Of a stretch of 39,021 nt of DNA, positions 24,441 through 34,281 are shown piece by piece. Numbering within the stretch: position 1 is the first letter of the stretch; every line of letters starts with the position of its first letter. The notes beneath the pieces are model-generated. The model did no database searches. It was given only the letters and a program-made list of their open reading frames with translations, and was not told the origin of the DNA. Source of the DNA: an uncultured Bacteroidota bacterium (GTDB taxonomy: Bacteria > Bacteroidota > Bacteroidia > Chitinophagales > Saprospiraceae); assembly GCA_903836265.1 (NCBI GenBank), contig CAILQK010000404.1:1-39021 (forward strand), in the 5' to 3' direction. A program made the position numbers and the translations under genes.

Positions 24441-24573
24441 TGTCGCGGTTTCGGGGAAGGCCATCACTCTGTTGAGCGAAGAAAAAGACTTCACGACCGG
24501 AATTGTGGAATGTGAAACCCGGCAAGTAAAAATCTTCCCGGACAAGGCCAGCCAAAACGAAAAAGCAGTCTAA
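24424..24573 (+). CDS. Possible small ORF overlapping the lptD 3' end (49 aa)
   Basis: This short frame is absent from the ORF track. TTG 24424 opens a 49-codon frame (e.g. FDVAVSGKAITLLSEEKDF) ending at TAA 24571-24573. It overlaps the last codons of lptD in another frame and the last bases of the convergent GWxTD gene. Its amino-acid composition looks protein-like rather than shadow-like, and it fills almost the whole 129-bp gap. I do not recognise a family. It could be a chance frame or a remnant of a gene. Confidence 0.25.
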   Translation: MIQGFDVAVSGKAITLLSEEKDFTTGIVECETRQVKIFPDKASQNEKAV

Positions 24574-26027
24574 AAATCCTCAAAAAATGCCCGGGCGTTG
24601 CGACCGTTGTTGCGCTGTACATTCTTGGCATCCCCGTAGTTGTCATCGGAATACTCCGTCGGATTGCGGCGGTACAGCTCTCGCTCCCATTTCGGATTAC
24701 TGATTTCTCCCCGCGCAGTTGAATGCAGCAGGATGAAATCGTCGCCTGCAAGCGACGGGTTGTAAAACAGAAACTTCACATTGGTCTGATTGGTTGACGG
24801 GAACTTGTAATACACCCATATCTCATACGGGGGTGCACCGGGTTCGTCCTCTACATGAACGATATCGCTGGCCTGACCAAAGCGCATGAACATACGCCCG
24901 CGATCAGTTTCAAACCCGTACCTGAATCCACTCCTGAATTTCACATTTGCGGCATCTGCCACAGCTATATACTCTCGGTATGCGAGTTCCGGATTGTTAG
25001 GATCGCGCTCCGCAAAATGACGGAATATGTAAAAACGCATTTGTTTTTCATCCCCGCTTTTCAGGATGTTGATGATCGCCTGCGATCTGTCGCCAGTCAT
25101 CAGCACAGAGATGGCGCGCATACAGTAAACCAGCTGATCCTTGTCCAGTTTCTGCACAAACTGTTTTTCCACTACCTCGTCGGATAACTGAATGTCCGAC
25201 AGATCAAGGAACGGGTTACTTCGCTGAAAAGTCAGTGTACGGCTGGTTAGCAGCTCGCTGCCATCCTTTCTGAGTTCGACGGTAAGTGAGTAATTGCCGC
25301 TTTCCATCTTGCTGATATCCATCTGAACCAGCAGGGCATCAATGGCAGAGGGCGCTTTTTCCTGACTTCCGGCGGCTACCAGATTTTTCTGACCATTGCC
25401 CAGTTCCTTCTCGATGACGTATCTCACCGTATATTTACCGCCTGAAACACTTTTGTCGGACTGATATACTTCGGCATAAAAAGCCAGTCGGGTAGCATCC
25501 TTGTCGTAAAAGGCAAAAGGCAGCGGCTCCAGGTGATAACCGTTTTTGGTGAAAGGCCCGTCTGTGTTGTCGGCTCTGAAACTGCGCAGCAACTGCACCT
25601 CCGAGAGTGTAATCCTGTTCTCAAACTGCACTGTCAGCGGACTTGAAAACCGGTCGGTGTTGGTCGCGTCATTCACGTCGGTCACCACCACATCGAGGGT
25701 ATATTGCCCCGGCGACAGGGCCAGTCTCTTCACATCGAGCAGTGATTCGGGGAAAGTAACCCTGGGACTGTTGAGTATATATTTCTCATAATTGACAATT
25801 TGATCGCCGTTTATGACCAAAATCAGCACCTCCGCGGCAGCTTCCAGCTGCGTACTGTCTATATGCCTGTACATAATTGATCCGGCCGCTATTTCAAGAT
25901 TTACCTCAAGATAGGGCTGTCCATCAGGAGTTTTGAAAACAGCGAAAGACACGCCCGCGTCGAGCGCATGCGCGAGGAACGGAAAAACAAGTACAAGTGC
26001 TGAAGTGAGGAATGGGCGAACCGTCAT
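24570..26027 (-). CDS. GWxTD domain-containing protein
   Basis: The 485-residue secreted protein has a signal peptide (FLTSALVLVFPFLAHA), a long beta-rich middle and the C-terminal GWxTD-type domain, here with the variant GFETDRGRMFMRFG (371-384) followed by YEIWVYYKFP. GWxTD proteins are widespread in Bacteroidota and related phyla and have no established biochemical role. The track begins at 26225, but the ATG at 26027 is preferred. It yields a canonical signal peptide and lies 25 bp after the stop of the channel gene, while the extra 66 residues overlap that gene. It is probably the last gene of the glmM-channel operon. Confidence 0.87.
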   Translation of the reverse strand: MTVRPFLTSALVLVFPFLAHALDAGVSFAVFKTPDGQPYLEVNLEIAAGSIMYRHIDSTQLEAAAEVLILVINGDQIVNYEKYILNSPRVTFPESLLDVKRLALSPGQYTLDVVVTDVNDATNTDRFSSPLTVQFENRITLSEVQLLRSFRADNTDGPFTKNGYHLEPLPFAFYDKDATRLAFYAEVYQSDKSVSGGKYTVRYVIEKELGNGQKNLVAAGSQEKAPSAIDALLVQMDISKMESGNYSLTVELRKDGSELLTSRTLTFQRSNPFLDLSDIQLSDEVVEKQFVQKLDKDQLVYCMRAISVLMTGDRSQAIINILKSGDEKQMRFYIFRHFAERDPNNPELAYREYIAVADAANVKFRSGFRYGFETDRGRMFMRFGQASDIVHVEDEPGAPPYEIWVYYKFPSTNQTNVKFLFYNPSLAGDDFILLHSTARGEISNPKWERELYRRNPTEYSDDNYGDAKNVQRNNGRNARAFFEDF

Positions 26028-26052: not shown

Positions 26053-28200
26053 TTACTGAACCAGATAAAGCAGGGCCATGAATAAACCGAGCAGGAGAAT
26101 CGGCAGCCAGACCCAGAGTTTGAAGCGTCTTCCGGCTGCTGATGAGGCACTTTTACTGCCGGGCTGCTTCCTGGATTTGCTGTATGAAACTGAAACGAAC
26201 AGAAAACAGAAAAAGTTGACAGCAAGGGTAAATACCAGAAAAATATAGGCCAGATTCAGGGAATCGGTAGCCGGAGAAATTTGCACCAGATTGATGGAGT
26301 AGGCAACCGTGGCAAGGAAAGATGTGATGATCAGCTCTCCTGCCTCCTCATAACTGGCTTTATGGTAAAACAGCATGAAAAGCGGCAGCGCACTGAACAT
26401 CATGAATGGCAGGATAATCAGGATAATAGCGCCCCAGGGCTGCCGGCTCACACCGAGGTGAACATTGAGACTTTTGTAGGTTTCCAGGTATTTGGCCCTG
26501 TCATTCGGATCAAAGGTAACTTTGTCGAGTGAGGCGAGTGCGTTGGATAACTGGTTGTCAACCGTAACAAAGTACTCCTCTGAATCCCAGTCGTTGAACT
26601 GGAAATCCTCGATCTTGTCGTTTATCTGCAGGCGGCTGTAGTCGAAACTGATACGCAGTTTGTCGCTCGAGCTGAGGGCCACAATCGGAATCACGAGTTC
26701 GTGGCGATCGAACGGAAATTCAAATGACTTGAAATTACCCTGAAATTTGCCGCTGATCCGGTAAATCCTGACGCGATAGTTGTCCATTTTCTCCTCCGCT
26801 ATCATGTACCGGTTGGCCTCCTCCGAACTGATATTGCTGAAATCAACATATCCTTCCTTCATGATATACTGTGAGTCGGCGATTACCCAGTACAGCAGGT
26901 TGCAGTCGAATGTATTCTTCCGGACATCAATATCGTTGATATCAATGACATCAATACCAACGCGCAGGTTCGGAATAACCTTGCCTTCGGTATTCATCTG
27001 TGAGGGGCAACTTCGGGTTTTACCCTTGTCAACCTGTTCAAAACTGGGCGCTTTCTTCAGGATAAGCCAGTTGTCAAACGAATAAAGTTCGTTTTCTATA
27101 TTTATTTTCCGATTTTTCAGTCCCTTGAAATAATACAGGATACTGTCCCTGGCATGTTTGTCATCCTGCAGCGCGGCCCGGAAGATATTTATCGCGGCGA
27201 AGCACCGGTGAAGCTGGTTGTCAGCTTCGGTTATCTTGTCCCTGTCAACAGTTTTGAAAGGCTTTGGATATCTGAGGGCAATTTCCTTTTTGTCGTTGTA
27301 AACACTGGCCGGCAATGCCTCATCTTCTGCCACAAGCCGGATGAACTTGTGGCCGCTTCTGAGCGTTACTTGCTCCAGCTGAGCATCGCTCATACTGGTG
27401 GAGATACCAACAAAAACCTTGTTTCTGACTGCTGGATTGTTGTCGAGATACCGGATAATTTCATCACCGAAACCACCGTGGGTATTGAGAAGGAATACCC
27501 GGTGCCTGTTGCCGGCGAAGAGCCTGTCCAGCTGCTGCTGCATACTTTTTACCGTATCTCCGGGCAGATCGCGGTTTTCGATATAAGACTTCTGCCAGAG
27601 GCAAACAGAATCACAGCTGATTCCGTTACTGCGCATACTTTCCAGGAATCGCTCGTGGAGCAGATAGTCACATTCGGTGATGAAGCCCACCGACTTTTCC
27701 TTTTCTATCTCGCTGATATACTGCACCAGGTAGTTGGGCTGTGGATCGTTGGGCTGCAGGAAGATGGCATTGCCCCCGAAATTTTCCCTGTTCTGATCGG
27801 CACTCAGGGAGATCACCGGAATTTTGTCGCGAATGATGCTGCTGGCCTCCCTGATATACTTCCCCCAGGTATTGTCAATCACCAGTACTATATTGGTATC
27901 GGATGCAATTTCTCTGTAAATGGCCGGTATCGTATCCGGTTTGTAATCGCACTGAAATGCTTTCAGCCTGTATTCAAAGAGATTCTCCTGCCGGTTGATG
28001 CGCTCCAGATAGGTATTGAGTGCCACCAGATAAAGCGAGTCGGCATATCCGTTCACACTGTCTTTGGCGGTATTGAGATAGTTGAAACCCACATAGGCAA
28101 TATATTTTGCGGGGCGTACCGATCCGGAATTGCTGCAACGCTGGAGAAGCAGCAACAGCATGAGGGATAAAAACAGTATCTGAATGAGTTTTTTTATCAT
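26053..28200 (-). CDS. Periplasmic-binding-protein / pentameric ligand-gated ion channel fusion
   Basis: The 715-residue protein has a signal segment (residues 5-20). Residues ~31-385 follow the type-1 periplasmic binding fold pattern (SIIRDKIPVISLSA, then VGFITECDYLLHERFLESM). Residues ~410-580 resemble a Cys-loop receptor extracellular domain with the Pro-loop FPFD (495-498) and no Cys pair, as in other bacterial channels. Four membrane helices follow: M1 ~590-611 with the conserved Pro (IILPFMMF), M2 ~617-638 (YEEAGELIITSFLATVAYS), M3 ~649-672 and M4 ~693-713. By recalled sequence M2-M3 aligns closely with GLIC (YEANVTLVVSTLIAHIAFN). It should assemble as an inner-membrane pentamer gated by a periplasmic ligand. 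The Glu at the inner mouth suggests cation selectivity. The ATG overlaps the upstream stop (ATGA). Confidence 0.85.
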   Translation of the reverse strand: MIKKLIQILFLSLMLLLLLQRCSNSGSVRPAKYIAYVGFNYLNTAKDSVNGYADSLYLVALNTYLERINRQENLFEYRLKAFQCDYKPDTIPAIYREIASDTNIVLVIDNTWGKYIREASSIIRDKIPVISLSADQNRENFGGNAIFLQPNDPQPNYLVQYISEIEKEKSVGFITECDYLLHERFLESMRSNGISCDSVCLWQKSYIENRDLPGDTVKSMQQQLDRLFAGNRHRVFLLNTHGGFGDEIIRYLDNNPAVRNKVFVGISTSMSDAQLEQVTLRSGHKFIRLVAEDEALPASVYNDKKEIALRYPKPFKTVDRDKITEADNQLHRCFAAINIFRAALQDDKHARDSILYYFKGLKNRKINIENELYSFDNWLILKKAPSFEQVDKGKTRSCPSQMNTEGKVIPNLRVGIDVIDINDIDVRKNTFDCNLLYWVIADSQYIMKEGYVDFSNISSEEANRYMIAEEKMDNYRVRIYRISGKFQGNFKSFEFPFDRHELVIPIVALSSSDKLRISFDYSRLQINDKIEDFQFNDWDSEEYFVTVDNQLSNALASLDKVTFDPNDRAKYLETYKSLNVHLGVSRQPWGAIILIILPFMMFSALPLFMLFYHKASYEEAGELIITSFLATVAYSINLVQISPATDSLNLAYIFLVFTLAVNFFCFLFVSVSYSKSRKQPGSKSASSAAGRRFKLWVWLPILLLGLFMALLYLVQ

Positions 28201-31238: not shown

Positions 31239-31550
31239 TTACATCATGTAAAATACTTCTTTCAGAGGCACTGAAACAGGCGAGTTATCCGGATGGGTTT
31301 CCATGATATCGGCCATGAAAGCCCACCATTGCTGCATGACGGGCTTGTACGGCAGTTCATCCATTTTTCCGGGATCATCAATCCGGAGTACCCCGAAAAG
31401 GGAGTTTGTTTCGCTGTCGAGAAAAATGGAATAGTCGGATATGCCGGCCTCCCCTAGCATTTCAGACAACTCCGGCCATATTTCGTCATGCCGGCGGCGA
31501 TATTCTTCCTCGCAGCCGGCATGGAGTTTCATTTTAAAGGCAATTCGCAT
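31239..31550 (-). CDS. rhaM: L-rhamnose mutarotase
   Basis: The 103-residue enzyme interconverts the alpha and beta anomers of L-rhamnose in the cytoplasm. Family features are the start MRIAFKMKL, the [11 protein letters not shown] helix with the catalytic His, and [19 protein letters not shown] near the C-terminus. The track extends to 31643 inside the upstream gene; the ATG at 31550 gives the standard family length and lies 4 bp after the rhamnosidase stop. Pairing with GH78 makes physiological sense, since the glycosidase releases rhamnose. The kinase, isomerase and aldolase for rhamnose are not in the window. Confidence 0.92.
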
Positions 31551-31554
31551 ATTG

Positions 31555-34281
31555 TCATTTTTTCCATTCCGATTCAAAGCTGTAAACACCCGATCCGACA
31601 CGAACCATGACATAACCGGAAGCGGCACCTGATACTGTAACACCTGTTGCCTCTTTGAGCGAGCTCCCGTTTTCTTTCACGCTTTCCGGATTTGTAGTCG
31701 GGATATATATGGTGGCGGAGGTATTGGCAGGTATTTCTGTGCGGAATGACAACTTTCCGTTCTTTATTTTCCAGCTGCTGGCCGCACGGCCGTAGGGTGT
31801 CTGCAGCACAGCTTCTGCATGGCTGAAACCTCCGCCCGGATATGGCTTGATCCTGATTGACTTGTAACCCGGAGCTGCTGCATCTGTGTCAAGACCGGCC
31901 ATTATGCGGTACATCCAGTCGCCGATAGCACCATAGGCATAATGGTTGAAAGAGTTCATACCGGCCGACTGGAAATCGCCGTTGGGCTTGATACCGTCCC
32001 AGCGCTCCCAGATTGTGGTGGCGCCTTTGGTGACAGGATACAGCCAGGAGGGATAGGCCTTCTGGTTCAGCAGTTCATAAGCCAGATCATTATAACCAAA
32101 GCGGGTCAGGACGTGGCAGAGGTGTGGTGTTCCGAGGAATCCGGTAGTCAGGTGAGTGCCATAGCTTTTTATGTTTTCAGCCAGTTTCTGCGCAATACCG
32201 GGGCGCTGGTATTCGGGCAGCATGTCGAACTGGAGTGCCAGCACATAAGCTGTCTGGGTGGGTGAGGCTATCCTTCCATTGGGCGTTACATACTCGTTCA
32301 TAAAGGCAAATTTGATTCCCTCGAGCAGTTTCCTGTATTCGTCCGCCTCACTGTTTTTGCCCAGTACAGCTGCTGCATTAATGAGTAACTGGGTCGAATG
32401 AGCGTAAAAACATTGTGCGATCAGGTATTTGTCGGTCACGGCCGAGCGGCCATCGTTGTCATCTTCCGGCCGATAAAACAGCCAGTCGCCAAAATGAAAC
32501 CCTGTATTCCAGAGGTTATTGACACTCTTGCTGCGCATGTACTCCACCCATGCCTTCATGGAGGGGTACTGATCTTCAAGTATTCTTTTGTCGCCGTAAG
32601 CCAGCCATGCATTCCAGGGGATGATATTGGAGACGTCTGCCCAGCCAGTGGAAGCAGAAGCGCCGGCGCCCAGTACATTGGGCACAACAAAAGGTACAGA
32701 ACCGTCCGGATTCTGGTCGGCCGCCACATCTTTCAGCCATTTGGTGAAAAAGTTGTGTACGTCGAAATTGAACATGGCAGTGCGGCTGAACGCCTGTGCA
32801 TCGCCCGTCCAGCCAAGCCGTTCATCGCGCTGGGGGCAATCGGTGGGCACATCGAGGAAGTTGCCACGTTGCCCCCACTGAATATTGTGCTGCAGCTGAT
32901 TGACCAGCGAATCGGAGCAGGTGAAGGTACCGGCAGGCTTCATATCGGAATAAAGAGCCACAGCGGATATATCGCCGGGTGTCAGTATTCCGGGGTATCC
33001 GTCAATTTTCACATAACGGAAACCGTGGAAAGTAAAGTGAGGCTCGAAGTGTTCGCCCGCCTGACCGCTCAGTATCCACCGGTCGGTACATTGTGCACCG
33101 CGCAGGTTTTCGATATAGAAGTTGCCATTTTTGTCGAGCACCTCGGCAAATTGCAGTTTGATTGTGTCACCCTTTTTGCCGGAAGCAGTGAGCATGGCCC
33201 AGCCCACCAGATTTTGTCCGAAGTCGGCAACCAGCTCACCGGCAGGTGTTCTGAAAATTTTTGGATTGGAGAACACCTCGTGCTTTTTGATGTACTCATT
33301 GGCGGTGGCAACAAGCTTGTCTTTTCCATCAGGCACCACTTTAACAGGTTTCCAGTTTCTGTCGTCGAAACCGGGTTTGTCCCATCCGGGAATTTCCATG
33401 CCGGAATTGTACGTTTCACCGTGATAGACTTCCGAACTTCTGACCGGGCCATCCGTGGTGTATTTCCAGCCGCTGTCGGTGGAAATGGTTGCAGTGCTGC
33501 CATCTGCAAACTCCAGAACGAGCATACATAGGAGCGAAACATCCTTGCCGTAAAAATTGCGCTGACCGGAGAACCCGATATTACCACGCCACCAGCCACT
33601 GCCGAGTGTGACTGCCAACGCATTTTTATCTGCGTTCAGAAGCGATGTCACATCAAATGCCTGGTACTGCAGCCGCTTCTGATAGGCAGTCCAGCCGGGA
33701 GTGAGGAAGGCATCCCCTACCCTCTTCCCGTTGATTTTTGCCTCATAAAGGCCATGAGCGGTAATATACAGCATCGCACTTCGCACCTGCCGGGTCAAAC
33801 CGAACTCCCTTCTGAACATGGGACTCGGCTGAGTGGAGTCTTCAGGATCAGAAACTGTAATCCATCCGGCCTTCCAGTCTGACTCACCGAGTAAACCCAT
33901 CCGCCAGAAGGCCGGTTCCGACCAGTCTGATACGTTGCCACGGTTATCCCAGACACGTACCTGCCACCAGTATTTCCGGCCCGACTGCAGCTCTTTTCCA
34001 GCATATTCTACCCACTGCGATGCACTGGAAGTGACTTTTCCGGAGGTCCAGTACAACTTGTTGGCATAAAGATTATCGGAGCTTTCAGCAACTTTTATTT
34101 CACAGGCTTCCTGTAATATACCCCTGTCCTCACTCAGAATCTTCCAGCCGAAGCGGGGCTTCACGTCAACGCTCAGTGGCTGGGTCAGATTCTCTACGCG
34201 GGTATCAGTTACGCGCACCTGTGCGTGAAGAAAACCCGTACATATAACAAGAGCGACTGACAGGAATGTTTTGAATTGCAT
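31555..34281 (-). CDS. GH78 alpha-L-rhamnosidase, secreted
   Basis: The 908-residue enzyme with a signal peptide ([17 protein letters not shown]) removes terminal alpha-L-rhamnose from plant glycosides, pectic side chains or bacterial glycans. An N-terminal Ig/fibronectin-like domain (about 25-130; [18 protein letters not shown]) is followed by the rhamnosidase N-terminal lectin-like domain ([20 protein letters not shown]). The (alpha/alpha)6 barrel carries the diagnostic [15 protein letters not shown] acid motif and the later [10 protein letters not shown], and a C-terminal beta-sandwich follows. The length is normal for GH78. It heads a two-gene unit with rhaM. Confidence 0.94.

Follow-up and report, generated by a model that had tools for sequence, protein, structure and literature searches.

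Sequence profiles support the reading of a single open reading frame from an uncultured member of the Saprospiraceae (Bacteroidota) as a fusion of a type-1 periplasmic binding protein (PBP-I) domain with a pentameric ligand-gated ion channel (pLGIC). The gene is complete, stop codon included, and occupies positions 26053–28200 on the minus strand of the 39,021 nt stretch of DNA that was analyzed (hereafter the window); from its ATG start it encodes 715 amino acids, exactly as originally predicted. All features of the window positioned below lie on this strand. The chain comprises a signal segment, a type-1 PBP domain, a pLGIC beta-sandwich and the transmembrane helices M1–M4, an architecture that is conserved in the orthologs and supported, for each half independently, by sequence profiles that were checked against negative controls, low-confidence fold searches being in agreement. 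With a probability of roughly 0.6, the protein would be an inner-membrane ligand-gated cation channel with a built-in periplasmic sensor.

Comparison with an 84%-identical relative (L001) yielded dN/dS values of 0.077 for the PBP half and 0.031 for the channel half; both halves are therefore under strong purifying selection, and the gene is a real one. Full-length orthologs were found in 21 of the 42 genomes of the genus and fragments in three more. In the samples of the order and the phylum, no other fused protein was detected and only stand-alone pLGICs or short fragments were present. Among the genomes sampled, the fused protein is thus restricted to one genus, a point absent from the original prediction. 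A search of viral contigs revealed no relative of the fusion protein, and its full-length sequence found no match on plasmids. The plasmid pLGIC matches examined (Azospirillum, Streptomyces) showed no PBP fusion, and the annotated ones were short ORFs labelled as hypothetical proteins. Promoter and terminator scans gave counts not above those of shuffled sequences. Besides Cys22 (see below), the orthologs share invariant cysteines at residues 84 and 333 of the PBP half and at residue 433 of the sandwich.

The ligand-binding beta-sandwich of the channel half covers residues ~412–585 (26446–26967), as indicated by profile homology and a low-confidence strand pattern, and is followed by the invariant pre-M1 Arg586. 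Within it, the FPFD motif at residues 495–498 (26707–26718) aligns with the Pro-loop of GLIC, the proton-gated channel of Gloeobacter, and all four of its residues (F495, P496, F497, and D498) are invariant. Together with P496 and R586, the M1 proline P598 and P643 of the M2-M3 loop constitute the pLGIC hallmarks that are invariant in the orthologs. Residues 586–715 (26056–26445) form the channel domain, identified by hydropathy and by the match to GLIC, with four hydropathy peaks at residues 592–610, 623–641, 653–671, and 696–714. The similarity to GLIC reached E = 0.0041 for the single sequence and 3e-5 for the ortholog profile. The Pro-loop, the four membrane helices and the resemblance to GLIC (for M1–M3, by eye) had all been proposed from the sequence and are borne out by these analyses.

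Individual proteins are too divergent for the curated family models to name the channel half: in Pfam and NCBIfam scans of single proteins and orthologs it remained unassigned, and neither the fusion protein nor its orthologs matched PF02931 or PF02932 in the Pfam scans. Two of three stand-alone pLGICs scanned did match Neur_chan_LBD (E ≤2e-4), one of them over the cut-off. The window protein matched Peripla_BP_6 with E = 4.9e-4 as a single sequence, under the curated cut-off, as did 6 of 19 orthologs (best 1.6e-5, likewise under the cut-off). Of the two family assignments that had been anticipated, that of the PBP half was thus recovered below cut-off and that of the channel half was not. Such weak single-sequence scores, and the lack of any but insignificant chance matches when the PBP profile was run against PDB sequences, could be taken to mean that neither half belongs with the family assigned to it (PBP or pLGIC). 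Profile-profile comparisons (hhalign) speak against this: the channel profile scored 97.8% over 248 columns against 33 stand-alone pLGICs of Bacteroidota, and the PBP profile 93.4% over 276 columns against binding proteins of the class, while crossed profiles gave 0.1% and column-shuffled profiles at most 1.2%. A chance similarity, to which only a negligible probability was assigned, is considered refuted by these scores and controls. The PBP profile further scored 94.6% against a template headed by Escherichia coli LivJ, with a match spanning both lobes, in line with the PBP fold originally proposed. At the level of sequence, the ortholog profiles settle the identity of both halves despite the Pfam scores below cut-off. 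Long Peripla_BP_6 proteins of the class were also considered as donors of the PBP domain and rejected (0.9% profile match).

Structure prediction, based on two sequences only, yielded models of poor quality in both cases (pLDDT 42 and 40). The low-confidence channel model shows strands followed by helices; the sandwich itself is assigned by profile homology. In fold searches with these low-confidence models, ranks 1–24 for the channel half were all pLGICs and acetylcholine-binding proteins. The PBP half retrieved mostly NMDA, kainate, AMPA, and GABA-B receptor entries and leucine-binding proteins (Foldseek), together with the glycosyltransferase LmbT (ranks 5 and 19) and SghR (rank 36). These searches count as agreement with the domain identities, not as proof of them.

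The M2 pore helix was located at residues 618–640 (26281–26349) by alignment with M2 of GLIC and by conservation, and the primed numbering used here was assigned in the present analysis from that alignment. The pore-lining positions read E618 (-2'), E619 (-1'), E622 (2'), T626 (6'), L629 (9'), A633 (13'), and I636 (16'); all are invariant except E618, which is present in 20 of 22 aligned rows. Glutamates at -1' and 2', below a leucine gate at 9', predict a cation channel; these acidic pore rings had been missed in the original prediction. GLIC shares the sandwich and four helices, the Pro-loop, the M1 proline, and the hydrophobic gate with A13' and I16'. It lacks an N-terminal domain, however, and is only ~13% identical in the fold alignment, and the present channel differs from it by the leucine at 9' and the additional glutamates at -1' and 2'. 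A receptor-like protein that does not conduct and uses the channel fold as a membrane platform only would be compatible with the fact that no function of a PBP-fused pLGIC was found in the open-access literature; yet the M2 residues that line the pore are invariant across the 22 aligned rows and dN/dS over the channel half is 0.031, which renders this reading highly improbable.

The PBP domain covers residues ~32–395 (27016–28107; approximate boundaries) and is classed as Peripla_BP_6 or LivJ-like by the profiles and by Foldseek of the low-confidence model. It is connected to the sandwich by a linker of residues ~396–411 (26968–27015), whose limits correspond to the gap between the two matched domains. 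The fusion gene is the sole Peripla_BP_6 match in its own genome. LivJ, LivK, and other Peripla_BP_6 proteins have the two-lobed type-1 fold in common with the PBP half; unlike LivJ and LivK, the fusion protein is not a soluble subunit of an ABC transporter, and most amino-acid contacts are replaced. The contacts of LivJ, which we take to be S79, T102, D121, Y202, and E226, were mapped onto the PBP domain through a profile alignment of 14% identity, with positions picked by the analyst. In this mapping, S79, T102, Y202, and E226 align with G113, D135, H241, and S267, and only D121 is kept, as D152. G113, D135, D152, and H241 are invariant in the orthologs and S267 is not. Blocks aligned with the LivJ pocket show a conservation of 0.86 compared with 0.67 for random blocks of the PBP domain (p = 0.0009). 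Since the pocket positions are more conserved than these random blocks, the binding site was probably kept, with a changed specificity. What this site binds is probably no plain branched-chain amino acid, because most of the LivJ contacts are replaced in a pocket that is polar and highly conserved.

In the proposed mechanism, five copies of the fusion protein would assemble, and in every subunit a small periplasmic solute would cause the two-lobed PBP domain to close. This movement could be transmitted via the linker of ~15 residues to the beta-sandwich and from there to the Pro-loop and the M2-M3 loop, whereupon the pore gated at Leu 9' would open. The glutamate rings at -1' and 2' would favor cations, perhaps divalent ones. 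The appearance of the solute would thus open the channel, leading to membrane depolarization or to the entry of a cation signal.

The PBP domain could instead modulate the channel or serve for its assembly, a role held by the N-terminal domain in AMPA and kainate receptors; as in GLIC or ELIC, an agonist or protons would then act on the pLGIC sandwich. This tentative alternative is in keeping with the kainate- and NMDA-receptor N-terminal domains among the best fold matches of the low-confidence PBP model, with the higher mean conservation of the sandwich (0.83, compared with 0.67 for the PBP domain) and with the occurrence, in the same genus, of stand-alone pLGICs that lack a PBP domain. A pure scaffold, however, would have no need of pocket positions whose conservation far exceeds that of the remaining PBP domain (p = 0.0009). 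The comparison with ionotropic glutamate receptors, already drawn in the original prediction, is a fair one, as these likewise carry a PBP-type-1-like N-terminal domain on a channel and glutamate-receptor entries appeared in the fold search. Their pore is unrelated and their subunit number different, so that the likeness is one of analogy and not of membership.

The signal segment, present as claimed, comprises residues 1–22 (28135–28200) and ends at Cys22. This cysteine is invariant in 22 of 22 aligned rows, while residues 1–21 average a column conservation of only 52%. Because the cysteine is invariant in an otherwise variable segment, it suggests an N-terminal lipid anchor and a candidate signal for signal peptidase II (lipoprotein signal), a feature that had been missed before. 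The stand-alone pLGICs of the order have no cysteine at a constant position behind their signal. The residue preceding Cys22 is usually alanine, serine or threonine in the orthologs; the window protein and its nearest relative have an arginine there, which is unusual and poor for signal peptidase II and weakens the lipoprotein reading for the window protein. For the proposed sensor channel, a lipid on the N-terminal cysteine, which is probably attached, would tether the sensor to a membrane. The stretch between Cys22 and the PBP domain is only ~10 residues long. Were the PBP domain stacked atop the sandwich, a lipid at Cys22 would therefore scarcely extend as far as the inner membrane. It is conceivable, if improbable, that the lipid sits in the outer membrane and M1–M4 in the inner membrane, with the sensor domains stretched between them, and that the channel reads envelope spacing or tension in addition to a solute.

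Analysis of the genomic context revealed a variable set of neighbors. In the window, the upstream gene P0002 (28197–29699; 500 amino acids) overlaps the start of the channel gene by ATGA, and translational coupling of the two is therefore likely. P0002 had no Pfam match even at E-values up to 1, and it adjoins the channel gene in only 3 of 21 loci, that of the window included. A GWxTD-domain gene (24570–26027; PF20094, ATG start inferred) begins 25 nt past the channel stop, with E = 5.2e-6 and a score 0.1 bit under the cut-off; 11 of 21 loci have such a gene near the channel gene and on its strand, and in nine it is the next gene downstream. Further upstream in the window and on the same strand, positions 31239–34281 encode what we take from the translations to be an alpha-L-rhamnosidase and a rhamnose mutarotase, and the upstream genes presumably also include GlmM, again as read from the translations. 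At 6 of 21 loci (L041, L042, L049, L050, also L038 and L051), a gene for an S15 hydrolase (X-Pro dipeptidyl-peptidase type) adjoins the channel gene or lies in its vicinity; at four of these it immediately precedes the channel gene in the same orientation. A POT peptide-transporter gene is located ~2.4 kb downstream at four loci (L038, L050, L051, and L054). These arrangements would fit a protein that senses peptides or amino acids freed by the neighboring peptidase, alongside peptide uptake. This explanation is nevertheless unlikely: no such genes are located beside the channel gene of the window or at most loci, where the upstream genes differ; S15-type enzymes include ester hydrolases and acylases; and synteny shared within a genus does not constitute independent evidence. 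None of the neighboring genes (P0002, GWxTD, S15, and POT) fixes the ligand.

The stand-alone pLGICs of the genus and the order (L010–L013 and L056–L085) are homologous to the channel half and are encoded by ORFs of ~310–380 amino acids, which possess neither a PBP domain nor the fixed cysteine after the signal. In an unrooted tree of the channel half, a single, very long branch with full support separates fused from stand-alone proteins. Most genomes of the genus, including most of those with a fused channel, contain one or two stand-alone pLGICs; in the genome of the window, only the fused channel was seen. Within the genus, two stand-alone kinds occur, ~64% and 28% identical to L010, resulting in up to three channel types per bacterium. 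Mutual exclusion of fused and stand-alone channels within the genus was considered and dropped, as most carriers have both.

Bacterial pLGICs have served as structural models for nicotinic, GABA-A, and glycine receptors. In the present protein, a channel of the nicotinic-receptor type carries a PBP domain whose relatives include amino-acid-binding proteins and the outer domain of glutamate receptors of the brain. Being conserved and having a pocket that looks intact, this PBP-pLGIC lends itself to testing the role of fused sensor domains, and such a test would show whether an N-terminal domain like that of glutamate receptors can drive a nicotinic-type pore.

The large N-terminal domain invites comparison with DeCLIC of Desulfofustis, whose N-terminal domain makes up about half of the mass and which is described as the only pLGIC with a partly characterized N-terminal domain (PMC12664993). 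DeCLIC ranked ninth in the fold search with the low-confidence channel-half model. The parallel drawn in the original prediction is a loose one, holding for the presence of a large N-terminal domain on a pLGIC but not for its kind: the NTD1 and NTD2 lobes of DeCLIC are likened to other regulatory and calcium-binding domains, with PBP-related domains appearing only as a parallel from AMPA and NMDA receptors (PMC12664993), whereas the N-terminal half of the present protein matches type-1 PBPs. Jaiteh et al. left terminal domains out of account and noted that associations of this kind had been observed at the genome level only (PMC4795631). A search of the open-access literature found no laboratory test of any PBP-fused pLGIC, and later work may exist.

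That surveys had noted binding-protein fusions is correct: PBP-I domains fused N-terminally to the channel module were described in Magnetospirillum magnetotacticum and Bradyrhizobium japonicum (Tasneem et al., 2005; PMC549065). These ART-LGIC fusions have the same order of parts as the protein described here, namely signal, PBP-I domain, pLGIC ligand-binding domain, and four-helix channel. They are alphaproteobacterial, however, whereas the present fusion stems from Bacteroidota, and the likeness is one of architecture. Because such fusions were already described, the novelty is limited to a divergent, probably lipid-anchored Bacteroidota variant; the word "lipoprotein" does not occur in the text of Tasneem et al. 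(PMC549065). A role in chemotaxis was proposed for the PBP-I-fused channels (Tasneem et al., 2005; PMC549065). On a plasmid of Azospirillum sp. B510 (L119:2779–6786), a stand-alone pLGIC gene is immediately followed by genes annotated as chemotaxis protein CheW and as an MCP four-helix-bundle protein, a gene order in line with this idea.
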